Made by a program: the position numbers and the translations under genes. From Synechocystis salina LEGE 00031 (GTDB lineage Bacteria > Cyanobacteriota > Cyanobacteriia > Cyanobacteriales > Microcystaceae), in NCBI RefSeq assembly GCF_015207985.1, contig NZ_JADEVV010000008.1, forward strand, positions 1 through 64,000: a stretch of DNA of 64,000 nucleotides, read 5' to 3'. Shown in pieces: positions 6,608-39,864 of the stretch. Position 1 is the stretch's first letter; each line of letters starts with the position of its first letter. Below the pieces are notes generated by a model. The model searched no databases. It saw only the letters and a list, made by a program, of their open reading frames with translations, and was not told the origin of the DNA.

Positions 6608-7039
6608 TTAGCCATTGCCTGAGGAGTCTAGGTTCATCACCAAACAACTAATATTTTTATCATCCCTCGCTTCATAGGTAAATTCATCTACGCTTTGCAG
6701 GGCCAAAAAAATTCCTAATCCACCAATTGGTCGGTCCTCCGCCTCCAAGCTCAGAATTGATTGATCAAATTGGCGATCACGGGGATCATAGGCGAGACCA
6801 GTATCCACCATAGTGACCTTTAATTTACGCTCATCCGCTTCTACTTGGATACTAATTTGATTGTGTCCCGGTGCATTAGCATAGCCATAATTAATAATAT
6901 TAGTTGCCAATTCATCCACTGCCAATCTCAATTTATAAGCTCTTTTTTTTGGTAATCCTACCACTTGAGCTTGATCTAAAATATGTTTTCCAATACTATT
7001 TAAGGCGTCTAAATCAGCGGGAAAATTTAAAATAGTCAT
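6608..7039 (-). CDS. RsbW-like anti-sigma factor / serine kinase
   Basis: The protein has 143 residues and a GHKL ATPase fold. The N box DELATNIINYGYAN lies at about 47-60, VDTGLAYDP at about 77-85 is the G1-type box, and GGLGIF at about 105-110 is the second glycine loop. Such proteins phosphorylate a STAS antagonist on serine and otherwise sequester a target (a sigma factor in Bacillus). Two STAS proteins and a SpoIIE-type phosphatase are encoded just upstream on the same strand, with 5 bases separating this gene from the phosphatase gene, so the partner-switching set is complete in one transcription unit. Length is normal for the family. Confidence 0.88.
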   Translation of the reverse strand: MTILNFPADLDALNSIGKHILDQAQVVGLPKKRAYKLRLAVDELATNIINYGYANAPGHNQISIQVEADERKLKVTMVDTGLAYDPRDRQFDQSILSLEAEDRPIGGLGIFLALQSVDEFTYEARDDKNISCLVMNLDSSGNG

Positions 7040-7044
7040 GGCAC

Positions 7045-8934
7045 TTAATTACGATAAACAGCAATCATAGTAATGTCATCGAACTGAATGGAACCATCAA
7101 TATGACTGATTAATTCTTGTTTGACTATGTCTAGAATTTTTGTTCCTGTCGAAAAATTTGTTGTTAACGTTTCCGCTAGTCTTTTGCGTCCAAAAAATTC
7201 CTTAGTTGGCGATCGGGCATCGGTAACACCATCAGTATAGCCAATTAATATTTCTCCAGGGTCGATTGTTAGACTATCAATTGTGAAAGTGGAGTCGGGC
7301 ATCATCCCCACAGCGGGACTAGTGGATTTTAATTTGTGCTTAATACCCTCAGAATTTAAAATAAAAACTGGTTCATGACCAGCATTGATATAACTTAGAT
7401 TGCCATTACTAATATCAATTACACCAAAAAATAAAGTGGCAAACATGGCCATGTCTCCATGTTCAGTGGCAATGTAATCATTAGTAAGTCGCACTGCATT
7501 TAAAAATTGTACAATAACCTTTTTTTTGTCATCACTATCACTGACACTACATTTATAGTTAACGTCACGAATACAGGTATCTCCTGGCATGGTTTCTCCA
7601 GAAAATACCCTTAATAAACTACGGAATAGACCCATAAACATGGCGGCTCCTACTCCTTTGTCGCATACGTCACCGATGACGATCGCCAAATAGCCATTGC
7701 CTAGCAAAAAAGCGTCATAAAAATCGCCAGAGACGGTTCGAGCCGGTTCAAAAACAGCATTTATTTGCCATTGGGGTAACTGGGGTAAGCTAATGGGCAA
7801 AAAGTTCTGTTGGATTTGTCGGCCTTTTTCCAGCTCCAAGCGGTTCATACCATCTTTAATTTCCTGGGCAATCAAGGTTTTAATTTGATTTCTCATATGG
7901 ATGAAGCTGTTACCCAAAATGCCTATTTCATCCTTGCCCTGAACTGTGATGGGATAGTCCAAATTTCCTTCGGCGATCGCCTGGGAGGCCTTAGTAAGTT
8001 CTAAAATAGGAATTGTGCTGTGGTGGACGACACTCCAGGAAGCATAGGCCACAATCACCCCAATTACTAAAAGCAACAGATAGCCAATTCTATTAACATT
8101 CAAAATAGCTGTTTGAATATCAGATTCTGAATTTTCTACAATTAGCCCCCAGGTTTTTGTTCCACGCAAATGAACGGGAGAAAGATAAGAAAACCGGCCT
8201 TGGCTATAAACAAATCCACCTTGATTATTGAGCAATTGATTAACAAGAAGAGAATTTTTTCTGTTTTCTAGTACGCTATAGTTTTTGATATCGGTATCGG
8301 CATAAACATATCCTTGGTAATTGACTAACAAGATACGCTCAAGCTCAGCATCCTTTAGAATTTTTTGAACAAAATCAGCAATAATTGGTAGGGGAACACA
8401 GCCCACAACAATGCCAATTTGAGTTTGATCATTTTTGTTGTGGATAGGCACAATTAAACAATCCTTACTCTCTGCATAGGTCTTTCCAGGAAATAAACGG
8501 TTTACATGCCGCTTTGTTTCTTTTACCTCTTCAAACCAACGTTTCAGAGGCAATTCTTTTTCTTGATTGGCACCATCACTGCCGGCAACTAACTCTCCCT
8601 CTTGGTTAGCAACGACGAAGAAGCCATTCCATTGATGAAATTTAACGAACTCGTTTAAAAAATACCGGGATTCTTCGACATTGAATTCAGTTATTACTGG
8701 TTCGGAAGCAACAAAAGCAGTACTTTGTTGCCGCTCCCGATCTGCACGGGAAATTAATTGGGTAATCAACCTTGCACGGCCTTGAAGATCTTTTTCTGCA
8801 ATTTTTTTTAATTGCCTTCCCGTATAGGAGTCGATGAGAAAAATCCCTCCCAGTGTAGGAGGAATCAGACAAAGTAGTAGAAGCCCAACAATGCGAAACC
8901 GAATTGATTGCATGAACGGTTGAATCAGTTTCAT
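7045..8934 (-). CDS. icfG: IcfG: membrane SpoIIE/PP2C-type serine phosphatase
   Basis: From ATG 8934 the protein has 629 residues. A transmembrane helix (about 12-33) is followed by a periplasmic dCache-like sensor region, a second helix (about 280-300), a HAMP linker and a C-terminal PP2C_SIG phosphatase domain. The phosphatase shows SGDFYDAF (first metal site), IGDVCDKGVGAAMF, NAGHEP and a final GYTDGVTDAR with the metal-binding Asp. Phosphatases of this kind dephosphorylate STAS antagonists to release the anti-sigma partner. The PCC 6803 homolog is known as icfG, needed to coordinate inorganic carbon and glucose use. A TTG five codons upstream is an alternative start. Confidence 0.92.
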   Translation of the reverse strand: MKLIQPFMQSIRFRIVGLLLLCLIPPTLGGIFLIDSYTGRQLKKIAEKDLQGRARLITQLISRADRERQQSTAFVASEPVITEFNVEESRYFLNEFVKFHQWNGFFVVANQEGELVAGSDGANQEKELPLKRWFEEVKETKRHVNRLFPGKTYAESKDCLIVPIHNKNDQTQIGIVVGCVPLPIIADFVQKILKDAELERILLVNYQGYVYADTDIKNYSVLENRKNSLLVNQLLNNQGGFVYSQGRFSYLSPVHLRGTKTWGLIVENSESDIQTAILNVNRIGYLLLLVIGVIVAYASWSVVHHSTIPILELTKASQAIAEGNLDYPITVQGKDEIGILGNSFIHMRNQIKTLIAQEIKDGMNRLELEKGRQIQQNFLPISLPQLPQWQINAVFEPARTVSGDFYDAFLLGNGYLAIVIGDVCDKGVGAAMFMGLFRSLLRVFSGETMPGDTCIRDVNYKCSVSDSDDKKKVIVQFLNAVRLTNDYIATEHGDMAMFATLFFGVIDISNGNLSYINAGHEPVFILNSEGIKHKLKSTSPAVGMMPDSTFTIDSLTIDPGEILIGYTDGVTDARSPTKEFFGRKRLAETLTTNFSTGTKILDIVKQELISHIDGSIQFDDITMIAVYRN

Positions 8935-14383: not shown

Positions 14384-14725
14384 TTAGGAATCCGTTTCAA
14401 AGATCGCCTTTAAAGCAGCAAAAGCACCGGCGGCTTTATTAAATCCACCATAGACACACATCAATAAAAGCACCTCTTCAATTTCCTCTTTGGTTGCCCC
14501 TTGTTTAAGGGCCATATCCACATGGGCTGGGAAGGGAACATCAAGGGTCTGATTTGCCACATCCACCGCAATCAAAATCAAGGCTTTGGTCTTCTGATCA
14601 ATTAAAGGCAATCCCCAGGCTTCTCCAGCAACCCTGGTGCAGAAGTCACCAAATTTAGGATTAATGCCGCTTAAACCTGCCTGTAAATCCTGATCGTCCA
14701 ACACGGCATTTTTAAACTTACTCAT
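14384..14725 (-). CDS. Carboxymuconolactone decarboxylase (CMD)-fold protein
   Basis: From ATG 14725 the protein has 113 residues and starts MSKFKNAVLDDQDL. It has the all-helical CMD layout: KTKALILIAVDVAN, then the HVDMALKQGATKEEIEEVLLLM helix pair. AhpD-type members carry CxxC in this last segment, whereas here only one Cys is present (LLMCVYGG), so peroxidase activity is unlikely and a decarboxylase-like or structural role is more probable. It lies between the SnoaL-like and DJ-1 genes in the same run. A TTG three codons upstream is a less likely start. Confidence 0.78.
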   Translation of the reverse strand: MSKFKNAVLDDQDLQAGLSGINPKFGDFCTRVAGEAWGLPLIDQKTKALILIAVDVANQTLDVPFPAHVDMALKQGATKEEIEEVLLLMCVYGGFNKAAGAFAALKAIFETDS

Positions 14726-14737
14726 TGGGTCCAACTC

Positions 14738-15313
14738 CTAGGTGGTAATAAGTTTCAGCAAATTATCCGGAGCAAACACATCCCGGTAAAAGGTCAGCTG
14801 CTCGGTTTTTAAATAACAACCGCCCCGGTGACCTCGACGCACCCAGGTGACATTCCCCTTCGCAATGGTTTCATGGGTTTCGTCGTCCACACACTTCCAC
14901 TCAAAAAAAGTATGCTCGCCATAGAACATGACAATGGGCCAGACCATAGTTACCCCGGGCTGGGCTATGAGGGCCCACCAGTGCTTTTCCCGTTCCTGTT
15001 GTTGTTCCAAACCGGAGTAAGGGCCGTCCTGGCAAAAATACACCAAATCCTCTCGATACTCCCCGGTGAGAATATCTCCCCGGCCCTGGCGGAGAGCTTC
15101 ACAGTGGGTAGGCCACCAGTCTTTATTTTCCTGCTCAATGATTCCTAAGGTGTAATTGGCATCAATGGCGGGCAAGGTGGCTTCTTTCATGGCCACATAT
15201 TTGAGCCCTTCTTCGATTAGTTCCTGCCGCAGACTTTCTGGCACCAGCCCTGGTTGGGAATAGTTAGCCTTCAGGTTTAAATAGTAATTTCTTCTTGCTG
15301 GCATAGATGACAT
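14738..15313 (-). CDS. SnoaL-like (NTF2-fold) protein, first gene of the icfG run
   Basis: From ATG 15313 the protein has 191 residues. After about 40 helical residues comes a tryptophan-rich beta sheet (DWWPTHCEAL, HWWALIAQPG, HTFFEWKCVD, NVTWVRRGHRGGCYL), the layout of SnoaL/NTF2-type proteins that bind or transform small molecules in a cone-shaped pocket. No catalytic residues can be assigned. An upstream in-frame ATG (15349) would add a hydrophobic stretch without family support, and a third ATG lies at 15304. It heads the minus-strand run that continues through glgX and icfG, so the main promoter should lie in the gap to its right. Confidence 0.65.
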   Translation of the reverse strand: MSSMPARRNYYLNLKANYSQPGLVPESLRQELIEEGLKYVAMKEATLPAIDANYTLGIIEQENKDWWPTHCEALRQGRGDILTGEYREDLVYFCQDGPYSGLEQQQEREKHWWALIAQPGVTMVWPIVMFYGEHTFFEWKCVDDETHETIAKGNVTWVRRGHRGGCYLKTEQLTFYRDVFAPDNLLKLITT

Positions 15314-15826
15314 AAAGATAACCCAAAAGAAATCTAATGACGCGAACAATAGGGCAGAAACAGGATTTTGTCTTCCCTGTCAGCCGATGGTTTGTTGAAA
15401 AGCATACCATGGCTTTTTACTATGTGCTCCACTGTGACAAAATGTTACCAAAGCTTCCCCTGAACTGAGTTCATTTACCTTGGATTTCTTCTGCTCAGCC
15501 CTACGCCGCAGTCCCATTAGTCAGGAAAGTTTGACTTTGGCGATCGCCGAAACACTTACCTCCAGGACAAGAATTATGGCTAACTCTTGAAATAACAATA
15601 AGCTATGCTGATTAATGTGAAAAAATGTTAAAAAAATAATGCCTGTTTAAAGTTTTTCTTATAATGGCTGGGGACAGCCAAGCGTGTTATTGTTTTTGTC
15701 AAAGCTCTACGCAGGGTGCCCTAACCCTAGAATTTAAGGGGACGCGGGAAATCCTGAGTTTTCCCGCACTATTTATGTTACTTGTTTTCCGACTGACCTT
15801 TAACTACTTTTGCAATTATCGATGCC
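15314..15826. other. Divergent intergenic region between icfG run and accessory run
   Basis: This 513-base gap separates two divergent gene runs and must hold both promoters. It contains a HIP1 site at about 15540-15547, a TATAAT box at 15660-15665 reading rightwards without a recognisable -35, and a strong stem-loop at 15744-15767. If the TATAAT is used, the ABM gene would have a leader of about 150 bases. I see no coding sequence or structural RNA gene that I can name. Confidence 0.4.
15744..15767 (+). promoter_or_regulatory. Leader stem-loop upstream of the accessory run
   Basis: A perfect 8-bp inverted repeat (GCGGGAAA / TTTCCCGC) with an 8-base loop lies about 60 bases before the ABM-domain gene, downstream of the TATAAT at 15660. 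No T-run follows, so it is not an obvious terminator. It could be an mRNA-stabilising or regulatory leader hairpin, or a protein-binding palindrome. Confidence 0.35.
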
Positions 15827-16267
15827 ATGAAAACTAGAGCTTTATTCCGTGGTCAGGGGATGTTGGTCGGGGTACTTTTGACCCTAGTAATTCCACTGTT
15901 TTTTTTATTAAGTATTCTTTTTCTTCCCTTGCCGACTTTAGCAGATGGTGATGGCGGAGCCAATCAGTCTATTATTGTGGCGGGTAACATCAAGGTAAAA
16001 CCGGAGAAAAGGGAAGAATTTATCGCCCTATCCCAGACTTTTATTGGACCTTCTCGGTCGGAACCCGGTTGTATATCTTACAGCTTTTATGAGGATGAAA
16101 CAGAGAATAACACGTTTCTTTTTTTTGAAGTATGGCGAAATCGTGCGGCCTTAGAATATCATTTTCAGACCCCTTACTTTCACGAATTTGTGGAAAAATC
16201 TCCAGATTTACTGGCTAAGGCAGCAGAAATTAAAATTTATAAAATAGCCGAATTTGAAACATTATAA
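15827..16267 (+). CDS. Exported ABM-domain (antibiotic biosynthesis monooxygenase-like) protein
   Basis: The protein has 146 residues. A basic start and a long hydrophobic segment (about 15-38) ending near TLADG indicate a signal peptide. The rest is one ABM/dimeric alpha-beta barrel domain: IIVAGNIKVKPEKREEF, then RSEPGCISYSFYED and FFEVWRNRAALEYHFQTPYFHEF. Cofactor-free ABM enzymes oxidise quinone- or polyphenol-like substrates, or act as redox-responsive dimers. An exported ABM protein is less common than the cytosolic type. It is the first gene of the plus-strand accessory run, 24 bases before the first cupin gene. Confidence 0.8.
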   Translation: MKTRALFRGQGMLVGVLLTLVIPLFFLLSILFLPLPTLADGDGGANQSIIVAGNIKVKPEKREEFIALSQTFIGPSRSEPGCISYSFYEDETENNTFLFFEVWRNRAALEYHFQTPYFHEFVEKSPDLLAKAAEIKIYKIAEFETL

Positions 16268-16291
16268 ATTTCTGTCAACCTCCATAAAAAC

Positions 16292-17089
16292 ATGAAAAGC
16301 TTTCCTCTGTTGTTGTCCCAATTATTGCTGGTACTATTGATAGCTCTGGGGAGCCTGACCATAATTTGCCCCAAAGCATTGGCGATCGCCACGTTGGATA
16401 ATTTCCCTAGCCCTAACATCGAAAATACAGAAAAAATATTAGGGCCAGCGGGGGAAATTTTTGAGTTTTCCACCTGTAATGCCGAGGGAATTGGCTTCAC
16501 CATTGCCAATGCCCAAATTCCAGCGGGAGCCGGGCCCTTGCCTCACATTCACCACTACACTAATGAGTGGTTTTGGACTCCCCAGGGGGGCTTGGAATTA
16601 TTTCAAAGCACAAAAGAATACCCCGATCTAGACAATCCCGCCACTGTGACCCAGGGGGGAAATGCCACCATTTACACAGTGCAAACCGAGCCTAATCAGA
16701 TTGTCTACGGTCCCAAATATCGAGTGCATGGTTTCGTCAATATCACCTCGGAAACCCGTCCCCTTACTTTCATCTGGCGACAGGATCCCACTTCTCCAGA
16801 ATATGAATTCCACGACGGTGGTATTCGTGAATATTTTAAAGATGTGGGTATTCCAATTAAAAATATGAAAAAATTGCCGAAAATCACTGACCAAGCCAGG
16901 GAAAAATTCGTTACCCATGCCCCTGACTACGGCATTAACCAAAGCTATTATTTTCTCCAATATGTTAATAAGCTTGATAATCAACCACCGGCGGCACTAG
17001 CAAACCTCAAAGATGATCAAAGTTTAAACGAGATTATCGAGACAATTAATGCCTATAATCAAGGCGATAGTTCTGTTACTTGTTTTTAG
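16292..17089 (+). CDS. Exported cupin-domain protein, copy 1
   Basis: The protein has 265 residues with an N-terminal signal (hydrophobic about 5-27, AIA before TLDN). The single conserved cupin barrel has LPHIHHYTNEWFW (His, His, Glu ligands, first motif) and a later YRVHGFVN (second-motif His), so metal binding is likely. A Cys in EFSTCN and another two residues from the end (VTCF) could form a disulfide in the periplasm. It is clearly paralogous to the protein encoded at 17333 over its whole length. The two copies flank a small XapX gene. The substrate is unknown. Confidence 0.8.
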   Translation: MKSFPLLLSQLLLVLLIALGSLTIICPKALAIATLDNFPSPNIENTEKILGPAGEIFEFSTCNAEGIGFTIANAQIPAGAGPLPHIHHYTNEWFWTPQGGLELFQSTKEYPDLDNPATVTQGGNATIYTVQTEPNQIVYGPKYRVHGFVNITSETRPLTFIWRQDPTSPEYEFHDGGIREYFKDVGIPIKNMKKLPKITDQAREKFVTHAPDYGINQSYYFLQYVNKLDNQPPAALANLKDDQSLNEIIETINAYNQGDSSVTCF

Positions 17090-17116
17090 TCTTTCTAGGA
17101 TTTCTAGGGAAAATTT

Positions 17117-17287
17117 ATGAATAAGGAATTAGGGTTTGCTATTCTTGGTGGTTGGATTTTGGGAGTGATTTTTGGCTTTTTCAAATTACCCTTACCCGTT
17201 CCTCCTTTTGAAGGTTTGGTGGCGGCGGCGGCCTGTCTTTTGGGTCAAGTTACTTATACCTTAATCAAGCAGAAATTTGGATTTTAG
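17117..17287 (+). CDS. XapX (DUF1427) small membrane protein
   Basis: The ORF encodes 56 residues, starting MNKELGFAILGGWILGVIFG. Two hydrophobic helices flank a LPLPVPPFEGLVAAAA turn, the hallmark of XapX/DUF1427 proteins of about 50-90 residues. Their function is not established; the name comes from linkage to xanthosine genes. The gene lies 27 bases after one cupin gene and 45 before its paralog, so it looks co-transcribed with them. Confidence 0.75.
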   Translation: MNKELGFAILGGWILGVIFGFFKLPLPVPPFEGLVAAAACLLGQVTYTLIKQKFGF

Positions 17288-17332
17288 AAATATATTCTTG
17301 ATAACTTATCTTTAATTTAAAGGAAATCAACT

Positions 17333-18136
17333 ATGTTCAAACTTAGGAGTTGGGGTTGGGCTCTGGTGTTGGCGATCGCCGTGGGAGGAGTAGTCTTTGG
17401 GCAAAGCTTGGCGCTATCCAAAAATTCACTGACCCATAGCATTGAAAATATTCCCATGCCGAAGTTGGAGAATCCATTGCGAATCCTAACCCCCGCCAAC
17501 GAAATTTTTGAAATTGCCTCCTGCTCCACCAAAGACTTTGGCTTTGCCATTACCAATGCCCAAATTCCCCCCGGTGCGGGCCCTTTGCCCCATGTCCACT
17601 ACTACATCAACGAATTTTTCTGGCCTCCTCAGGGGGGGATCGAAATTTTCCATAGTGAACGTAAGTTTCCCGACATGGGCAAGCCTCCCACCATGGAAGC
17701 CGCTGGCCGAGCTTCGCTTTATGCCATTACCCCCCAACCCAAGCAGGTGATTTATTCTCCCCATACTTTTATGCACGGCTTTGTGAATCCCACCGATGAA
17801 ACCTTGCCAATTACGATGATTTGGGTGCGGGATGCAATTGCTCCAGACTTTGAATATCACGATGGCGGTATGCGGGAGTATTTCTCCGCAGTGGGGGCCC
17901 ATATTGAAGACTTGAATAATTTACCCACATTGACCGAGGCACAACGCAATGCTTTTGTCACTGAAGCCCCCAAGTTTGGCATTAATCAAAGCTCCTATAT
18001 GATGCAGTATGTTTCTGCCATTAGTGACGAATTTCCGAGCAATTTAGCCAAACTAGAAAATACACAAGCCTTGACTAAAGTGATTGAAACAATTGAGGCT
18101 TTTAACCGTGGCGATAAATCGGTAACTTGCTCATGA
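17333..18136 (+). CDS. Exported cupin-domain protein, copy 2
   Basis: The protein has 267 residues, preceded by a clear AAAGGA ribosome site. The signal peptide spans about 1-27 (ends near SLALS). The cupin motif PLPHVHYYINEFFWPPQGG retains the His-x-His and Glu ligands and FMHGFVN supplies the late His. The conserved cysteines (ASCSTKD and the terminal VTCS) match copy 1, as does the EYHDGGMREYF segment, so the two arose by duplication and then diverged. Its stop overlaps the start of the TIM-barrel gene by ATGA, implying translational coupling. Confidence 0.8.
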   Translation: MFKLRSWGWALVLAIAVGGVVFGQSLALSKNSLTHSIENIPMPKLENPLRILTPANEIFEIASCSTKDFGFAITNAQIPPGAGPLPHVHYYINEFFWPPQGGIEIFHSERKFPDMGKPPTMEAAGRASLYAITPQPKQVIYSPHTFMHGFVNPTDETLPITMIWVRDAIAPDFEYHDGGMREYFSAVGAHIEDLNNLPTLTEAQRNAFVTEAPKFGINQSSYMMQYVSAISDEFPSNLAKLENTQALTKVIETIEAFNRGDKSVTCS

Positions 18137-18996
18137 TTGCCCCTCCCCCAATCAAATTTGGAGTTCATACCTTTATCTGGAAAAAGGAATTTCTGGGTCA
18201 AGAAGAATATATTTTTCGAGATGCTAAGGTCTGGCAGTTTGATGGGGTTGAAATCGCCAGCCATTTCTTTGATCAAATTGATCCTGGACGGCTGAAGGAT
18301 TTTGCCCACCAATCGGGTTTGGAGTTAACTTTTTGCACCAGTTTACCCCAGGGTCTATCCCTGACCAGCGAAGATGAAACCTGTTGGCGGGATTCCATTG
18401 CCTATCTACAAAGGGCAATTGTATTCTGTCAGCAATGTGGCATCACCCAACTGTCGGGGCCGTTTCCCCATCCCGTGGGTTATCTCAGTGGGGAACCTCT
18501 ACAAAAAAAGGAAGCCATCCGCATGCAGGACGCATTTAAGTTGGTGGCAGAAACCCTAGTGAAAACCGATCTTAAATTGGCGATCGAGCCTTTGAATCGT
18601 TTCCAGGGTTATGCGCTCAATACTGTTGAGCAGGGTTTGGCGCTACTTGATGCGGTCAATTGTGACCAATTGGGGCTTTTACTGGATTTATTCCACATGA
18701 ATATTGAGGAAAAGGACGTGCTCCAAGCCTTTCGGCGAGCAGGCAACAAATGCTTTCATATCCATGCCTGTGCTAAAGACCGGGGCACCCCAGGTAGTGA
18801 TTCCTTTGCTTGGAGTGATTGGTTTAAGGTTTTGCAGGAAATTAATTATCAAGGCTGGGTAACCATTGAAAGTTTTAATTTTGAAGATCAAGAATTAGCT
18901 TCTGGAGCCCGTCTTTGGCGGCCCCTCGCCCCCACCAGTGCAGATATTGCTAGGGATGGAGTGAAATTTCTGCGGCAAACTTACCAAAACCAATAA
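18133..18996 (+). CDS. TIM-barrel sugar isomerase/epimerase (xylose isomerase-like)
   Basis: From ATG 18133 the protein has 287 residues. It has the AP-endonuclease-2/xylose-isomerase-like barrel: KFGVHTFIWKKEF at the start, IEPLNRF with a metal Glu, LLLDLFHMNIEE with Asp and His, HIHACAKDRGTPGSD and TIESFNFED. The pattern IEPLNR..LLLDxFHMNIEE is that of the D-psicose/D-tagatose 3-epimerase and hydroxypyruvate isomerase group. It is cytosolic. Overlap with the upstream cupin gene couples them. It probably interconverts ketoses or related polyhydroxy acids; the exact substrate is unknown. Confidence 0.82.
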   Translation: MIAPPPIKFGVHTFIWKKEFLGQEEYIFRDAKVWQFDGVEIASHFFDQIDPGRLKDFAHQSGLELTFCTSLPQGLSLTSEDETCWRDSIAYLQRAIVFCQQCGITQLSGPFPHPVGYLSGEPLQKKEAIRMQDAFKLVAETLVKTDLKLAIEPLNRFQGYALNTVEQGLALLDAVNCDQLGLLLDLFHMNIEEKDVLQAFRRAGNKCFHIHACAKDRGTPGSDSFAWSDWFKVLQEINYQGWVTIESFNFEDQELASGARLWRPLAPTSADIARDGVKFLRQTYQNQ

Positions 18997-19015
18997 ATTT
19001 ACCAAGTACATCACC

Positions 19016-19891
19016 ATGAATCAGCCCTATATTCCCATTACTTTGCCCTCTGGTTTTAACCACACTTATACCACCGTTGGAGATGTCACTCTCCATGCCA
19101 TAGAAGGGGGAAGGGGAGAACCTTTATTATTATTGGGAGGCTGGCCCCAAACCTGTTACGTCTGGCGACTTTTGTGGGAACAATTGGGGCAACATTTCCA
19201 CGTTATTGCCTTGGACATGAGGGGTCAAGGGGATTCAGACATTCCTGATGGCCCTTACGACTGTGGCACTGCGGCGAAGGAAATCAAAGATTTTTTAGCA
19301 AAAAGGAAGATTAATTCTTTTTACTTAGTAGGTCACGATGTAGGGGCTTGGGTTGCCTTTACTGTGTTGAAATTTTTTCCCGATGCCGTACTGGGGGCCG
19401 GGCTCATTGATGCGGCAATTCCCGGGTTGGTCAGTAATGATTTCTTTTCTGTGGTTAATGCCCCCAAGGTATGGCAATTTTATTTCCATATGGTGCCGGA
19501 TTTAGCCAGTAGCTTGGTGACGGGGAAGGAAAAGGAATATCTCAGTTGGTACTTCACCAACAAGTCTAAACGAAAGGAGAATCTTACCCCGGAAGTGATG
19601 GATTACTATGCCCGTTACTATAGTCGTCCTGGGGCGATGAAAGCTGGTTTTCTGTGGTATGCCGCTTTGGAGGAAACAACTAAAGCTAATACGCCGACGG
19701 CAGATACCCATTTCAGCCAGCCTATTTTTGCTATGGGGGGAGAGTTTGCCACTAAATCTTTAATTTATAACGGTATTTCTCCCTATTGTGATGACATTAC
19801 AAGTTATGTAATTGAACAGTGTGGTCATTACATTCCAGAAGAGGCGCCAGAGGAAATTTTGAAAGCTATTGTCAACACCTTCAAACCCTAA
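19016..19891 (+). CDS. Alpha/beta hydrolase (epoxide hydrolase / haloacid dehalogenase-like branch)
   Basis: The protein has 291 residues. The nucleophile elbow is GHDVGAWVA at about 105-113, so the nucleophile is Asp, as in epoxide hydrolases and haloalkane or fluoroacetate dehalogenases, not the Ser of esterases. DMRGQGDSD at about 68-76 is the conserved loop, GGWPQT takes the HGxP position, and the catalytic His is in EQCGHYIPEE near the C-terminus. No signal peptide is visible. It is the sixth gene in the accessory run, 19 bases after the epimerase gene. Confidence 0.85.
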   Translation: MNQPYIPITLPSGFNHTYTTVGDVTLHAIEGGRGEPLLLLGGWPQTCYVWRLLWEQLGQHFHVIALDMRGQGDSDIPDGPYDCGTAAKEIKDFLAKRKINSFYLVGHDVGAWVAFTVLKFFPDAVLGAGLIDAAIPGLVSNDFFSVVNAPKVWQFYFHMVPDLASSLVTGKEKEYLSWYFTNKSKRKENLTPEVMDYYARYYSRPGAMKAGFLWYAALEETTKANTPTADTHFSQPIFAMGGEFATKSLIYNGISPYCDDITSYVIEQCGHYIPEEAPEEILKAIVNTFKP

Positions 19892-19929
19892 AAAATTAAC
19901 TTTATTAGTAACACAATTTAGTACTAACT

Positions 19930-21039
19930 ATGAGACATTCACGGAGAAATTTTTTAGCTTTGGCTGGGGCCAGTTCCCTGTTGGCGATCGCCGCTCCGAA
20001 GTTGTTAGCCCAGGGCATCCCCCAGGAAATTTTAAATAAAATCCTGCCCCTTCCTGGGAAATATGGAGAATATTATGGTCAAGCAAAAATTAGGGCCTTC
20101 CACCTCCATAACCAACCCGATACTAGCCCCTTACATAAAGCTTTGGAAGAGTTATGGCTGGAAGTATTTAAGCAAACCGATGGAGAACTATTTGTCTCCC
20201 CCCTGCCCGAGGATGCTTCCCTTCCGGCGGGCGATCCCCAGGCAGTGCAATTTATTACTGGCGGACGTTTTGAAATTGTTAGTGTAGCTGGCCCCATTAT
20301 TGACAAAGTCTGTCCCGATGTTATTGGCATTCAAAATATTGGACTTTTTTATCAATCACCTCAAGAAGTTTTTGAAATTATTAATCAGCCCTTATTTGCT
20401 GAAATTCTTAATCAATCCGTCTCCCAATACAATCTCACCTATTTGCCCAATGGCACCTTTGACAATGGCATGAGAAGTGTTACGTCCATAGAGAGCAAAC
20501 CAATTTATCAACTAGAGGACTTTCAAGGCCTGATAATTCGTACTCCTCCTTCCGCTGATATGATGGCGACCATGGAAGCTTTAGGTGCGGTCCCTAAGCA
20601 ATTTACCATGAATCAAGTTTTCGAAGTTCTTAAAAATGGTAATGTCCAAGCTCAGGAAAATCCCATGTCTGTAGCCCTAGGCTTTAAGTTATATGAAGTA
20701 ACCAAATATTTAAACATAACCAACCATGCCTGGTCGGGGTATAACACATTTTTCAATACCAACTTTTGGAACTCTCTCTCTGCTTCGACCCAAGGCGTAA
20801 TAAAAGAACTGCTCCCCATCTATCAAGCTAAACAAATCAAAGCCCAGGAAGAATATAATCAACAGGCGTATGAACAATTGACTAAAAAATTAGGCATGGT
20901 GGCAACTAATCCGGATTTATCCCAGGGCACTGAGAAATTAATGAAAGTTTATCAGTCCCTTTATAGTCGCTTAAATCCCCAAGCCCAATCATTGATCCGA
21001 AATAAATTAGAGGAAAAAACTGGCATCAAATTCAGCTAA
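19930..21039 (+). CDS. TRAP-type (DctP) periplasmic solute-binding protein, Tat-exported
   Basis: The protein has 369 residues. A Tat signal HSRRNFLALAG is followed by a hydrophobic stretch to about residue 27. The mature part has the DctP layout: ELFVSPLPEDASLPAGD, FEIVSVAGPI, the helical hinge GLIIRTPPSADMMATMEALGA and VQAQENPMSVALG. These proteins deliver carboxylates or keto-acids to a DctQ/DctM permease, but none is encoded in this window, so the partner is elsewhere or the protein works as a sensor. The GGCGATCGCC at 19983-19992 is the site at which the relict at 23853 diverges from this gene. Confidence 0.85.
   Translation: MRHSRRNFLALAGASSLLAIAAPKLLAQGIPQEILNKILPLPGKYGEYYGQAKIRAFHLHNQPDTSPLHKALEELWLEVFKQTDGELFVSPLPEDASLPAGDPQAVQFITGGRFEIVSVAGPIIDKVCPDVIGIQNIGLFYQSPQEVFEIINQPLFAEILNQSVSQYNLTYLPNGTFDNGMRSVTSIESKPIYQLEDFQGLIIRTPPSADMMATMEALGAVPKQFTMNQVFEVLKNGNVQAQENPMSVALGFKLYEVTKYLNITNHAWSGYNTFFNTNFWNSLSASTQGVIKELLPIYQAKQIKAQEEYNQQAYEQLTKKLGMVATNPDLSQGTEKLMKVYQSLYSRLNPQAQSLIRNKLEEKTGIKFS
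19983..19992. repeat. HIP1 site inside the DctP-like gene (recombination partner)
   Basis: GGCGATCGCC, a HIP1 core octamer with flanking G and C, within the signal-peptide codons. The chimeric relict at 23853 matches this gene up to exactly this site. Confidence 0.9.
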
Positions 21040-21067
21040 TTTCTGTAACTTTATAAAATTCAAAAAT

Positions 21068-22117
21068 ATGAACGAAATATTGAACGTTCTTCCCTGGGGG
21101 AAATTGAGGCACAACAAAATTGATTGTTTATTGTTTATTTTATTTCTCCTAATCAGCCTTTGGCTCTTTCCCCACCAGGAAAAGGCCTGGGGACAGGAAA
21201 AAGACTTTGTTGTTAAAAAGATTGATCTTAGCCAGTATGGAACATCAGCTTCCATCGCTCAAGATCCTAAGTCGGAACAACTGGCGATCGGTTTTAATAA
21301 CTGTAATTTGATTTTTTTAGATAATAGTTTAAACTGGAAAGACGAGCTATTTCTCAAGGATTGTAAGAGATTTTTTCGGGCCAGATATGGAAATCTTGAG
21401 GGAAAATCATTGCTAATTTCTTCCATTTACACAGGCAGTAGTGTTCTGTCCAACTCCCAAGCAAAGTATGATATTCCCCTCCATAAAGCGGCGGTTACTG
21501 ACTCTCTAATTATCCAAGATTATTTACTATCTTCTTCCGACGATGGTACTGTACAAATTTCCAGGATCATTGATCTTTCTCCGCCCCAAGTCAACACATT
21601 AAAACTCTATGAGTCCATTGGTGTAGCTAGAAATCTCGCCTTTTTTCGTGCCCCCAATGCCGAAGTTGACAAGGTAGCTGTTAGCTATGACAGTGGTGAA
21701 ATTACCATTTTCACCATCGACCGCAACACGTTGCGTAATCCCGTCCAACCAACTACCTTCAGAAATATAAATAGTCGGGTTAACACGTTTAAATTTACCC
21801 CTGATGGCTCAAAGCTACTGATTGGTTACTTCACGGGGGAACTGGTGGAAATAGACCTAATTAGCGGTGCCAGTAGGACTCTTTTCAAAGTGGATTCCTG
21901 GCTAAATGCGTTAGACATTAATTCCCAAAATTTAGTGGCGATCGCCGATGATCAAGGCTTTGTGAGAATTATCTCTTTAGCGACAGGAAAAGTAGTCGAA
22001 GAACATCAAATTTCCTCGACCGGAATTAATGCAATAATTTTCACAAATGATCAAACTATCCTGGCCGCCGATGCCGCTGGGATAGTCTATCAAGGAAAAC
22101 TAATGGGTGGTCATTAA
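21068..22117 (+). CDS. Exported WD40-like beta-propeller protein
   Basis: The protein has 349 residues. A hydrophobic segment (about 22-37) followed by KAWGQ suggests a signal peptide or anchor. The body consists of repeating beta blades with WD40-like spacing: SSSDDGTVQISRI, VSYDSGEITIFTI, LIGYFTGELVEIDL, AIADDQGFVRIISLATGK, LAADAAGIVYQGKL. It probably forms a periplasmic scaffold propeller. It follows the DctP-like gene by 28 bases and closes the accessory run. Its last 60 codons are duplicated in the relict at 23853, again starting at a HIP1 site (21937-21946). Confidence 0.75.
   Translation: MNEILNVLPWGKLRHNKIDCLLFILFLLISLWLFPHQEKAWGQEKDFVVKKIDLSQYGTSASIAQDPKSEQLAIGFNNCNLIFLDNSLNWKDELFLKDCKRFFRARYGNLEGKSLLISSIYTGSSVLSNSQAKYDIPLHKAAVTDSLIIQDYLLSSSDDGTVQISRIIDLSPPQVNTLKLYESIGVARNLAFFRAPNAEVDKVAVSYDSGEITIFTIDRNTLRNPVQPTTFRNINSRVNTFKFTPDGSKLLIGYFTGELVEIDLISGASRTLFKVDSWLNALDINSQNLVAIADDQGFVRIISLATGKVVEEHQISSTGINAIIFTNDQTILAADAAGIVYQGKLMGGH
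21937..21946. repeat. HIP1 site inside the WD40-like gene (recombination partner)
   Basis: GGCGATCGCC within the codons for LVAIADDQ. The relict at 23853 matches the DctP-like gene before its copy of this site and the WD40-like gene after it. Confidence 0.9.
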
Positions 22118-22134
22118 TTTTCTTCAAAACATTT

Positions 22135-22680
22135 TTAAAGAATTAAACGGGGCTTGATTTTTTCAATACCTTGGAGGGCACAGGCTTGGTCTAAGTTTCC
22201 ATTGGGGGAACCAGAAACGCCGATCGCCGCCACTAATTGGTCTCCGACTTTAATGGCCAGGCCGCCGGTGCTATAACTCAGACCGGTGATGGGATTGGGA
22301 GCCAGAGGCACGGAACCCACAGGCAACGGAGCTGGGGTCATTTTTTTTGCGATCGCCTCTGTGGAATCTTCTTTGGTGATAGGTCCTAAGGTGATCACAG
22401 TATAAGCTTTATAAAGGCTATTTTCTATGGTGTGGGGAGTGGCTCCGTCCCCTCGGATAACAGCTTGCACTAAACCTTCTTGATTGACCACTGTGGCGGT
22501 AACGTTATAACCATTTCCCTGACAACTGTTAACAGCTTCCATGGCCGCTTCCACTGCCAAAGAGAATGGCAATTGATAAAGGGTTTTTAAGGCAAAGGCT
22601 CCAGGGGAAAACGCCAAAGATAGGCCAAGGGAAACCCCTAATACCAAAAGGGGTTGAAAAACTACTTTTTTCAATTTCAT
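22135..22680 (-). CDS. Exported GlcG/HbpS (DUF336) family protein
   Basis: From ATG 22680 the protein has 181 residues with a signal peptide (about 1-31, ending ..PGAFA). The rest is a GlcG/HbpS-type domain: AVEAAMEAVNSCQGNGYNVTATVVNQEGLVQAVIRGDGA, ENSLYKAYTV, a late GGLAIKVGDQLVAAIGVSGSPNG and DQACALQGI. HbpS-like proteins bind haem or small molecules and can act as redox sensors outside the cell. It converges on the WD40-like gene with only 17 bases between. Its two cysteines may form a disulfide. Confidence 0.82.
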   Translation of the reverse strand: MKLKKVVFQPLLVLGVSLGLSLAFSPGAFALKTLYQLPFSLAVEAAMEAVNSCQGNGYNVTATVVNQEGLVQAVIRGDGATPHTIENSLYKAYTVITLGPITKEDSTEAIAKKMTPAPLPVGSVPLAPNPITGLSYSTGGLAIKVGDQLVAAIGVSGSPNGNLDQACALQGIEKIKPRLIL

Positions 22681-23020
22681 GGAAAGCTCTCTGTAGTGAA
22701 ACAATCCTAATTCTACTTACATTTACGACCTTATTTTCTGGATCTAGTGCCCACCCAATGTGGTAAAATTCGTAGGGGGTATATTAACAAGGGTTCTGAA
22801 TATTTTGTTTTTTGACAGCCCGATACGTGTACTACTGTATTGGTCCCTGCTCAGAAATTTTCTTCCCTTGACTGGAGTCATTTCCAAAAGGGCGATCGCC
22901 ACTCAGAATTTACTCCCATTGCCATTTTTTCTGCTGATTTTCCCAACATCTAGCAACTTTTGGGACTCCACACTGATGGTTTAAGTTTTCAAATAACTTT
23001 CAAATAACATTTCTGGAGAT
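22681..23020. other. Intergenic region, HbpS-like / SDR
   Basis: A 340-base AT-rich gap between divergent genes. It holds a HIP1 site at about 22893-22900 and a GGAG ribosome site just before the SDR start. A hydrophobic open frame from a GTG at 22760 has no family resemblance or ribosome site, and I do not count it as a gene. Nothing else is recognisable. Confidence 0.4.
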
Positions 23021-23767
23021 ATGCCAATGACTTGCGATATTGCCAACAAAATCATTCTCGTGACCGGTGCTAACCGTGGCATAGGGAAGGTGCTGGTGGA
23101 GTCTTTTTTGGAGCACGGAGCCGCTAAAGTTTACGCCGCCGTTAGAAACCTGGACAGTGCCGCCCCCCTAGTCGAGCAATATGGCGACAAAGTAGTCCCT
23201 ATTTTTATTGATCTGGCGGACCCAGAATCCATTGCTACCGCCGCCCAAACCGCCACGGATGTAGATATTGTGGTCAATAATGCCGGGGTGCAAAAAGTAG
23301 CATCTCCCTTGGACGAAGGGGCGATCGCCTGTCTAAAATCTGAAATGGAGACCAATGTGTATGGCTTAATTGCCATGGCCCAAGCCTTTGCGCCGGTGCT
23401 CAAGGCCAATGGGGGAGGGGCCTTTGTGCAACTTAACTCAGTAGTTTCCCTAAAATCATTTTCCAATGTGGCCACCTACTCCGCTTCCAAAGCCGCAGCC
23501 TATTCCATTACCCAGGCATTGTGGGAATTGCTTGGTGAGCAAGGCACTCTGGTTCTGAGTGTCCACCCCGGCCCGTTGGCCACCGAAATGACCCATGCCT
23601 CTGGAAGAGCCGATATTGCCGAGCCCCCCACCTTAGCGGCAGATGCCATTATCGACGCCCTCAGATCCGGCGAATTTCATGTTTTTCCCCACGATACTAT
23701 GGCCAAACAAATGGGTACTGCCTATCAGACCTTTGCCAAAAGTGTAATTGAAGTTAATTATGGCTAA
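23021..23767 (+). CDS. Short-chain dehydrogenase/reductase (SDR)
   Basis: The protein has 248 residues. The nucleotide motif TGANRGIGKV lies at about 15-24, NNAGV at 86-90, the catalytic Ser in LNSVVS and the YSASKAA triad (Tyr and Lys) at about 151-157, followed by VHPGPLATEMT. This is a classical SDR using NAD(P). The substrate cannot be read. GGAGAT 6 bases upstream supports the start; a second ATG two codons in is possible. It stands alone between the HbpS-like gene and the chimeric relict, near genes for other exported or sugar-related proteins. Confidence 0.9.
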   Translation: MPMTCDIANKIILVTGANRGIGKVLVESFLEHGAAKVYAAVRNLDSAAPLVEQYGDKVVPIFIDLADPESIATAAQTATDVDIVVNNAGVQKVASPLDEGAIACLKSEMETNVYGLIAMAQAFAPVLKANGGGAFVQLNSVVSLKSFSNVATYSASKAAAYSITQALWELLGEQGTLVLSVHPGPLATEMTHASGRADIAEPPTLAADAIIDALRSGEFHVFPHDTMAKQMGTAYQTFAKSVIEVNYG

Positions 23768-23852
23768 AAGCTAGAGTGCCGGTGAGGATTTTAGTTTTTC
23801 ACAACAACGGTTCAGGGTCAAAATATAGCCAAAATGTAAACTTCATCCACCC

Positions 23853-24086
23853 ATGAAACATTCCCGCAGAAATTTTCTTACCTTGGCTGGGGAAAGTTTT
23901 CTCCTGGCGATCGCCGATGATCAAGGTTTTGTGGGAATTATCTCCTTAGCCACGGGAAAAGTGGTAGAAGAACATCAAATTTCCTCGACGGGAATTAACG
24001 CTGTAATTTTTATGGATGATCAAACTATCCTTGCCGCTGACGCCGCTGGTATGGTCTATCAAGGAAAACTAACAAGTTCTAACTAA
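23853..24086 (+). pseudogene. Chimeric relict: Tat signal of DctP-like gene fused to C-terminus of WD40-like gene
   Basis: The open frame has 77 codons. Residues 1-20 (MKHSRRNFLTLAGESFLLAI) match the start of the TRAP-type protein at 19930; from ADDQGFVGIISLATGK to the end it matches the last 60 residues of the WD40-like protein at 21068. The switch is exactly at GGCGATCGCC (23906-23915), a site both parents carry in the same frame. The simplest history is duplication of the two-gene cassette followed by deletion between the HIP1 copies. The frame remains open despite about 15 percent divergence, and AIA-D could serve as a signal-peptidase site, so expression as a small exported peptide is not excluded. 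Confidence 0.85.
23906..23915. repeat. HIP1 site at the chimera junction
   Basis: GGCGATCGCC at the exact point where similarity changes from the DctP-like gene to the WD40-like gene. Confidence 0.9.
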
Positions 24087-24264
24087 ACTAACTGCCGACC
24101 AAATGTCCGATTCTGATCAATACTTCCCCGAGACAATTCGAGGAAATTCCTGAGCCATGGTTTATGGCCACTGGTTACGGTGGGGAGGGCAAGGCCCTGG
24201 CCATTATCATTTAAAATTCTAGGTGACTTTGTGAATTCGTTGCTGAGAAAGGAGTGTGTAGCCA

Positions 24265-24534
24265 ATGGCTAAATATGTACTTTGGGGGACCTATTGCGAC
24301 AATGTGGAAGAAAAAAGAGCGCCCCATCGTCAAGCCCATCTGGACGGACTCAAAGCCCAAAAGGAAAGTGGCGTGTTGGTTACCATTGGGCCCACCAAGG
24401 ATTTACAGCAGGTTTTTGCCATCTATGACGCACCAGACCAGGACACAGTGGAGAAGTTGGTGCAAGATGACCCCTACTGGCAAAACGGTATCTGGACGGA
24501 GTACGAGGTCAAGGAGTGGATTCAAGCTTTTTAG
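24265..24534 (+). CDS. YCII-domain protein (YciI-like)
   Basis: The protein has 89 residues, one YCII domain: MAKYVLWGTYCDNVEEKRAPHR with the conserved His, then LVTIGP and FAIYDAPDQDTVEKLVQDDPY with the Asp-Asp-Pro that ends the family signature. A GAAAGGAG ribosome site precedes it. YciI-type proteins are ferredoxin-fold dimers with putative hydrolase or dehydrochlorinase activity; most have unknown roles. It lies just before psbN, which is on the other strand. Confidence 0.88.
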   Translation: MAKYVLWGTYCDNVEEKRAPHRQAHLDGLKAQKESGVLVTIGPTKDLQQVFAIYDAPDQDTVEKLVQDDPYWQNGIWTEYEVKEWIQAF

Positions 24535-24598
24535 CGTTGCTACCACTATTACCCCAAGTCAAGGGTAGGGGCAGGGGCCCATTCCCCCAGGAAAAATT

Positions 24599-24730
24599 CT
24601 AATCTTCGTGGTCATCGAAGGGATCACCCAGCTCGGCGGAGGGGGGACCAAAAGAGGTGTATACTGCCAAGCCAGTGATGGCAATGAGAATGACAGCAAA
24701 AGTAATGCTAAGAACTGTTGCGGATTCCAT
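24599..24730 (-). CDS. psbN: Photosystem II biogenesis protein PsbN
   Basis: The ORF encodes 43 residues, starting MESATVLSITFAVILIAITG and ending DPFDDHED. A single membrane helix plus an acidic tail and the FGPPS motif identify PsbN, an assembly factor for photosystem II in the thylakoid membrane. It is divergent from psbH, as in other cyanobacteria and in chloroplasts, where psbN lies opposite psbH. Confidence 0.97.
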   Translation of the reverse strand: MESATVLSITFAVILIAITGLAVYTSFGPPSAELGDPFDDHED

Positions 24731-24767
24731 GGGGTAAGATTGATAGTTGTTTCTGTTGTCTTATATT

Positions 24768-24785
24768 ATTACAGAACATTACAAA
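24768..24785 (+). promoter_or_regulatory. HLR1-like direct repeat upstream of psbH
   Basis: Two TTACA units 10 bases apart (ATTACAGA-AC-ATTACAAA) lie 31-48 bases before psbH. The RpaB-binding HLR1 consensus is (G/T)TTACA(T/A)(T/A) repeated after two bases; here spacing is right but the first base of both halves is A and the end of the first half is GA. Degenerate, so only a candidate. Confidence 0.35.
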
Positions 24786-24815
24786 AACTCATTTAGTCAT
24801 TTTTACGGGAAATCT

Positions 24816-28700: not shown

Positions 28701-30215
28701 ATGCCCACTACCCTAGACCAGTTTTTAACCCCCATTGTCTTCGTCATTTTTGCCCTGGCGATCGGTGTTTTAGTCTGGGGCTACCGGCGGGCCAAACCCT
28801 TCGGTAAGCTTGGCAAACTTGCTTGGCTACAGTCCGTGGTGCTGATGGCCCCTTGGCTGTTGTATTTTGTCCTTTTTAGCTTAGGGTTGTTCCTCAGTTT
28901 GCCCGCAGTATTAATTCTGCTTTTGGTATCGGCGGGAATTTACATCTATCTCGGTCGGCAAATGCGGGAGGCAGGGCAAGCGGAACTGTTGCGTCAAAAA
29001 GCGGCCCAACGATTGCAGAATTTGGCCAAGGAGCCAGATCAGGGCACAACTGTTGGCGAAGTCAATGCCACCACTAGCCTTGAAGAGGATGCTTCCCCCA
29101 TTCCACCGGAAGATTTGGCAATTATTAAAGGGATTTTTAGCATTGATAGTTTTTTTGCCACGGAGACCATTGCCTACCAGGAGGGGGCAATTTTTAAGGG
29201 CAATTTACGGACGGAGGCGGAGGACGCCTTTGGCAAACTTTCGGCTAAACTCAAGGATTTGATGGGGGATAAATACCGTCTCTTTTTGGTGGAAGGTAGC
29301 GAAGACCGGCCGGTGGTAGTTATTCTCCCCAGCAGTAATGACCCCCAGCCCAGCACCCTGGCCCAGAAAAATTTGGCGGTGGTATTACTGGTGGCCACCA
29401 TTGTCACTACGTTGGAGGCAAGTGCGGCCCTGTTGGGCTTTGACTTAGTAGACAATTGGCAACGGGTGGGGGAAACGGTTCCCCTGGCGATCGCCGTGGG
29501 CATTATTTTACTAGCCCATGAGCTAGGCCATCTCTGGCAGGCGAAAAAGTGGGATGTACGCCTCAGTTGGCCATTCTTTTTACCCAATTGGCAAATTGGT
29601 TCCTTTGGGGCCATTACTCGTTTTGAGTCCCTGTTACCTAGTCGTAATGCCCTATTCGACGTGGCGATCGCCGGGCCGGCGGTGGGGAGCTTAGTGTCCC
29701 TGTTATTCCTGATAGTGGGTTTAATACTTTCCAGGGAAGATAGCCTTTTTCAGTTGCCGGTGCAGTTTTTGCAGGGTTCATTGCTGGTGGGCACTGTGGC
29801 CAAAGTCATCCTCGGCGATGCCTTGACTAAGGACATTGTGGCCATTCATCCCCTAACGGTGCTCGGTTGGTTAGGTTTAGTCATTAATGGTTTGAATCTA
29901 CTCCCGGCGGGCCAATTGGACGGTGGCCGCATTATTCAAGCTATCTACGGCCGCAAAGTAGCTCGGCGGACCACCATTGCCACGTTGATTATTTTGGGGG
30001 GCATCACCCTCTTTAACCCCGCTAATCCCATCCCCCTCTACTGGGCGATCGTGGTTTTATTTTTGCAACGGCAACTAGAACGGCCCAGTCTAAACGAGTT
30101 GACGGAGCCCGATGACACCAGGGCCGGCCTGGGACTGCTGGCTCTGCTATTGATGTTACTCACCCTGATTCCCTTTAGCCCCAACTGGGCCCTAAGGTTA
30201 GGTATTGGAGCGTGA
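28701..30215 (+). CDS. Site-2 protease (M50, EGY-like) membrane metalloprotease
   Basis: The protein has 504 residues. Two N-terminal helices precede a soluble region (about 100-210), then a multi-spanning core. LAHELGHLWQAKKW (about 271-284) is the HExxH zinc motif and GLNLLPAGQLDGGRIIQ (about 396-412) supplies the distal Asp. The soluble domain after the first helices and the HELGHLWQ form match the cyanobacterial relatives of plant EGY1, which act in chloroplast membranes. Target proteins are unknown. Confidence 0.9.
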   Translation: MPTTLDQFLTPIVFVIFALAIGVLVWGYRRAKPFGKLGKLAWLQSVVLMAPWLLYFVLFSLGLFLSLPAVLILLLVSAGIYIYLGRQMREAGQAELLRQKAAQRLQNLAKEPDQGTTVGEVNATTSLEEDASPIPPEDLAIIKGIFSIDSFFATETIAYQEGAIFKGNLRTEAEDAFGKLSAKLKDLMGDKYRLFLVEGSEDRPVVVILPSSNDPQPSTLAQKNLAVVLLVATIVTTLEASAALLGFDLVDNWQRVGETVPLAIAVGIILLAHELGHLWQAKKWDVRLSWPFFLPNWQIGSFGAITRFESLLPSRNALFDVAIAGPAVGSLVSLLFLIVGLILSREDSLFQLPVQFLQGSLLVGTVAKVILGDALTKDIVAIHPLTVLGWLGLVINGLNLLPAGQLDGGRIIQAIYGRKVARRTTIATLIILGGITLFNPANPIPLYWAIVVLFLQRQLERPSLNELTEPDDTRAGLGLLALLLMLLTLIPFSPNWALRLGIGA

Positions 30216-30346
30216 ACTACCCCGACTCGCTTGCGCTGAAGTCGAATCTTTCTACCCCAAGGAGTAGCTAGTCTTACATTCTGACAATAGACGGAATCCC
30301 CCGTTCCAGAGTTAACGGACTTAATTTCGTGAAAATTTCAACATCA

Positions 30347-39699: not shown

Positions 39700-39864
39700 T
39701 CAGCCATTACGCCATAATTTCACAATGCAAACCGAGTCTCATTTTAAGGGTTTGGCGCATCCATGGAGGAACTTCCCTGGGAGCCCAGGGAGCTTTGGGT
39801 TACCCTAAAAAATAATTAACCAATGACATTTCCTGATCGAAGTTCCGCAAATTTCCCCCACCCT

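Follow-up and report, generated by a model that had tools for sequence, protein, structure and literature searches.

The question raised by this locus is how a short open reading frame came to combine the start of one gene with the end of another gene of a different family, the two being joined in frame at a copy of the palindrome HIP1. The frame lies in the window, that is, the whole stretch of 64,000 nucleotides of Synechocystis salina LEGE 00031 (contig NZ_JADEVV010000008.1) that was analysed. The smtB region of Synechococcus is where HIP1 was first found, and a role of the palindrome in promoting rearrangements was proposed; a HIP1-associated deletion in the metallothionein locus has been known since 1993 (Gupta 1993, as cited in PMC6331805). 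For three decades the palindrome has thus been suspected in rearrangements, mostly through cloned sequences, plasmids and a few laboratory strains. The present case shows a chromosomal event in both its states in related species, the intact genes in one and the in-frame fusion in the other.

In the list of open reading frames, an ATG opens the frame of 77 codons at 23853-24086, the parts of which are given in Table 1 together with the neighbouring features. Compared with the intact cassette of the window, the first 64 nt of the frame resemble the start of dctP at 19930-19993 (80%) and positions 23905-24072 resemble the WD40-like gene at 21936-22103 (88%), both similarities ending at, and overlapping only within, the 12-bp block TGGCGATCGCCG at 23905-23916. 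The junction contains GGCGATCGCC and with it the HIP1 octamer GCGATCGC, which is over-represented genome-wide and which in dctP and in the WD40-like gene alike is read as GCG ATC GCC (Ala-Ile-Ala). An in-frame chimera with its switch at HIP1 in the same frame of both genes, as proposed in the preliminary description, is thereby confirmed by alignment and by the comparison with the related genome G003 below. The divergence of 'about 15 percent' stated there applies to the tail (86% identity to the in-window copy over 174 nt in the codon comparison), but not to the head (79% over 63 nt). The Tat motif SRRNFL is retained in the fusion head. The solute-binding domain PF03480, present in 19930-21039 (9e-63), is absent from the 77-amino-acid product in the Pfam search, and none of the models matching the product reaches its curated cut-off. 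A closed WD40 or beta-propeller domain was likewise not found in the fusion, in which about 55 residues of the propeller gene are left and all models stay below the curated cut-off.

Table 1. Features of the fusion locus and of the first cassette (window positions)
Feature	Position	Strand	Basis or remark
Intact dctP (TRAP solute-binding protein, PF03480), first cassette	19930..21039	+	Pfam 9e-63; 75.6% identical to G003 dctP
Intact WD40-like beta-propeller gene, first cassette	21068..22117	+	71.9% identical to G003 gene; weak beta-propeller models
Gene convergent with first cassette	22135..22704	-	Order dctP-WD40-(reverse gene) recurs in G084 and G107
SDR-family gene, upstream of fusion	23021..23767	+	Counterparts G003 L010:6484-7224 and G001 within L011:6354-7157
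Chimeric 77-codon frame	23853..24086	+	Codons 1-18 from dctP signal region, 19-21 HIP1 (Ala-Ile-Ala), 22-77 WD40-like tail
Head, remnant of second-cassette dctP	23853..23906	+	Within 91.8% identical block collinear with G003 L010 6362-7373; site polarisation
Junction TGGCGATCGCCG with sole remaining HIP1 GCGATCGC at 23907-23914	23905..23916	+	Exact 12-nt overlap of two G003 matches
Tail, remnant of second-cassette WD40-like gene	23916..24086	+	Start of block collinear with G003 L010 9353-15665, 94.9% overall
Next downstream gene	24265..24534	+	YciI-like by eye; equal sequence follows intact WD40 gene in G003

The origin of the chimera was resolved by its relatives. Among the five genomes of the genus that were searched, including the window's own, G003 is syntenic and about 90-95% identical in the region of the fusion, and it was here that the search suggested in the preliminary description, for an undeleted dctP-WD40 cassette after the SDR gene, located one. 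Window positions 22700-24800 match G003 in two blocks, 3182361-3183372 (92%) and 3185352-3186247 (90%), each with a BLAST E-value of 0 and with a query overlap of exactly the 12 junction bases; as both halves of the fusion lie within one syntenic block of G003, chance similarity is excluded. Between the two blocks G003 carries an intact dctP (L010:7310-8419), its only dctP of this type, followed by an intact WD40-like gene (L010:8461-9534), flanked as in the window by the SDR gene before and by petC and petA after. HIP1 is thus found at both ends of the additional segment in undeleted G003 (L010:7364 and 9355, 1,991 bp apart, in equal frames) and once in the window. The sequence common to the two G003 sites is GCGATCGCCG (10 bp), and in the window's ancestor this pair may have had up to 12 bp in common. 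The more distant G001 (about 80%) has the order SDR-dctP-WD40 too, with different downstream content, and the dctP-WD40 pair is also present in G084 and G107, which belong to other families. The intact order in G003 and G001 marks the intact state as ancestral and the fusion as derived, so that the event is a deletion and not an insertion.

The genes at 19930 and 21068, originally regarded as the parents, are according to the comparison with G003 a divergent second copy, the parents being the genes of the lost second cassette. This first cassette is 72-76% (about 74%) identical to the G003 cassette in a surrounding genome of mostly 90-95%, and the dS of its dctP to G003 is 1.86 versus 0.24 for the adjacent SDR gene; the earlier figure of 15% arose because the fusion was compared with this divergent copy. 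Judged from these values and from its gene order, which recurs in G084 and G107, the first cassette is an old paralog or a transferred segment. Window positions 14400-22700, which contain it, have a lower identity to G003 than their surroundings (about 70-89% in 500-bp steps) and are likely an exchanged or transferred block; in place of the first cassette, G003 and G001 have other genes, in a stretch of about 3.7 kb common to the two. The gene convergent with the cassette is one which we take to be of the GlcG/HbpS-like family. Directly after HIP1 the identity of the in-window WD40-like gene to G003 rises from about 0.73 to 0.87 (21936-22060 versus L010 9353-9480) and returns to a lower level some 120 bp further on (permutation p 0.004, post hoc test), a pattern in which 21936-22060 is possibly a short gene-conversion tract beginning at HIP1.

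That the fusion nevertheless derives from the in-window cassette 19930-22117, via duplication or ectopic recombination, finds some agreement in the tail, of which the identity to the in-window WD40-like gene (86%) is close to that to the G003 gene (87%), and a conversion tract from this cassette is possible for the tail only. For the head and both flanks, which are collinear with the intact cassette of G003, such an origin is refuted, K2, T10 and other sites of the head being common to G003 and unlike the in-window copy, which makes it highly improbable as a whole. The species is represented by one assembly, a draft of 115 contigs, in which a mis-join at a short repeat is conceivable in principle. 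An artefact of this kind is, however, extremely improbable, as the repeat has only 12 bp, far less than usual assembly overlaps, as the fusion carries substitutions of its own that are in neither cassette, and as its distance to the nearer end of the contig is about 24 kb.

It is highly probable that the fusion arose by a deletion of about 2 kb between two HIP1 copies of the lost second cassette, through a mechanism generic to short repeats, with, most likely, a non-functional remnant as the product. The lineage formerly possessed a second dctP-WD40 cassette straight behind the SDR gene, an arrangement preserved in G003 and G001. Comparison with them shows a single deletion from the HIP1 in the signal-peptide codons of dctP to the HIP1 located some 60 codons from the end of the WD40-like gene, with everything in between lost and one HIP1 left. 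The likely mechanism is a generic deletion between direct repeats of 10-12 bp, for which replication slippage, single-strand annealing or microhomology end joining are proposed as routes. The loss was probably tolerated and the second cassette may have been dispensable because the divergent cassette at 19930-22117 would make it redundant. The 77-codon product, combining an altered Tat signal with a beta-propeller fragment, would most likely be a non-functional remnant. Repeat length alone does not single out the HIP1 pair, since the G003 locus has 20 direct repeats of at least 10 bp, two of which are HIP1 pairs, and other repeats of 10-12 bp were left unused, the deleted HIP1 pair counting 10 bp there. 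The fusion is a new, well-documented natural and well-polarised example of a HIP1-associated deletion.

Whether this chimera is old or selected, as its intact frame had been taken to suggest, can be judged from its substitutions. It is quite unlikely that the fusion is a new functional gene under selection, such as an exported beta-propeller fragment cut after Ala-Ile-Ala, although the frame is intact with its ATG and the upstream sequence kept, HIP1 provides an A-x-A motif after the h-region, and the dN/dS against the matching parts of the G003 genes is 0.09. This last value mixes time before and after the deletion, and the differences between the fusion and G003, mostly synonymous, can largely predate it. 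When the other copies are used to polarise the sites, the fusion branch receives 5 nonsynonymous and 4 synonymous ones and the intact G003 branch 3 and 11; amino-acid changes are thus relatively more frequent on the fusion branch, but not significantly so (one-sided Fisher p ~0.11, hand calculation). Two of the changes, A14E and S16F, affect the h-region of the Tat signal and were found solely in the fusion copy, A14 and S16 being invariant in three intact copies; Glu14 brings a charge into the Tat core, and the model TIGR01409, whose cut-off even the intact genes do not reach, is unlisted for the fusion. An open frame is expected by chance, as it persisted after 8-15 random substitutions in 73-55% of simulations, and the product has no domain at the curated cut-off. 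The chance of an open frame, the branch counts and the h-region changes together give no indication of great age or of selection; they are best accounted for by a deletion of fairly recent date, after which constraint was relaxed, and the fusion is probably a decaying remnant. It is very unlikely that HIP1, with its mostly Ala-Ile-Ala reading, serves in Synechocystis as a reusable in-frame fusion point and that the chimera is expressed, exported and kept by selection.

The preferred deletion between short repeats has to be weighed against a HIP1-specific recombination, in which a dedicated activity, be it a site-specific recombinase or HIP1 methylation that guides strand breaks, would have joined the two copies. 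Such an activity would be in line with the site-specific recombination of plasmids at HIP1 in Synechococcus PCC 7002 (Akiyama et al. 1998, as cited in PMC4390886) and with a 188.6-kb inversion in S. elongatus PCC 7942, located in two genes, the breakpoints being preceded by HIP1 (PMC9239245). On the other hand, the excision frequency of HIP1 is described as similar in E. coli and Synechococcus, to judge from the title of the study (Robinson et al. 1997, as cited in PMC4390886), which fits a generic mechanism. According to PMC4390886, no evidence connects HIP1 with homologous recombination. Along about 614 kb of the window's genome aligned to G003, two of the 31 clean length differences of at least 50 bp are precise HIP1-to-HIP1 indels, the other 29 making no use of HIP1. 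In the G003 sample, with 750 HIP1 copies in 896 kb, HIP1 pairs account for 24%, 32% and 34% of the exact direct repeats of at least 10, 11 and 12 bp, respectively, at a spacing of 100-3000 bp. A HIP1-specific recombination is consequently not required by the data, and it is unlikely. In the first 466 kb, HIP1 pairs make up two of the three deletions of at least 100 bp with repeats of at least 9 bp (the fusion counted as a 10-bp repeat), a weak hint of a HIP1 preference which, with these small numbers, is compatible with the repeat share of 24-34%; a mild preference for HIP1 in deletions may exist. HIP1 as a deletion hotspot was considered and found no support in the indel survey beyond its abundance. 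The view that HIP1 copies can act as crossover points fusing unrelated genes accordingly stands insofar as two HIP1 copies were joined, but not for HIP1 as a special site, as its abundance as a direct repeat suffices.

That the join is in frame follows from the mostly Ala-Ile-Ala frame of HIP1 in the genus. In open reading frames of at least 100 codons, 937 HIP1 sites are distributed over the frames as 660:220:57, with Ala-Ile-Ala as the most frequent (660, 70%), so that two random genic copies are frame-matched with a probability of 0.555 (about 56%) as compared to one third. In-frame chimeras would, by this count, be a by-product of the frame bias. The counts provide a quantitative reason for the occurrence of HIP1 at deletion ends and in in-frame fusions without a dedicated enzyme: HIP1 supplies a quarter to a third of the short-range direct repeats of 10-12 bp, and its frame bias lifts the chance of an in-frame product from 1/3 to about 0.56.

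Deletions between short direct repeats in general are classically explained by slippage, as in E. coli lacI. As in lacI, one repeat and the intervening DNA were precisely lost; unlike there, the present repeat is a hyper-abundant palindrome, so that pairs are common and often frame-matched. With the 1993 deletion, as far as it is summarised in PMC6331805, the present case shares the cyanobacterial chromosome and the position of HIP1 within coding sequence; there, however, a regulator locus was altered in a cadmium-tolerant line, whereas here neighbouring genes of different families were fused in frame, with no known selection. The excisions of Robinson et al. (1997), in the outline given by PMC4390886, are illegitimate deletions too, with HIP1 copies serving as the repeats, but in cloned sequences in the laboratory, while the deletion described here is chromosomal, is seen in a genome assembly and has its direction fixed by outgroups. 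The plasmid junctions of Akiyama et al. (1998) in Synechococcus PCC 7002 similarly fall at HIP1 or the HIP1 core and are presented by the same source as site-specific recombination, in contrast to a deletion without sign of a dedicated enzyme here.

The second HIP1-to-HIP1 difference of the survey lies beyond the window, at 70718-71084 of contig C115 (L045 ~6718-7084), between two convergent conserved frames, the survey placing the indel at contig position 70728 (L045 ~6728). The window's genome has the segment of 366 bp, G003 carries the short form with one HIP1, and in G001 the beginning of the segment is retained close to the left flank. The synteny break at window position 22894 was also considered as a clean HIP1-to-HIP1 event and was rejected as part of a complex 9.8-kb difference; the break, with a 9.8-kb stretch in G003, lies inside a HIP1 of the window (GGGCGATCGCC in the window, GCTGATCGCC in G003). 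At window positions 39722-39796 a stretch of 13.3 kb is found in G003 only, and at 30211-30312 a stretch of 100 bp is found in the window's genome only.
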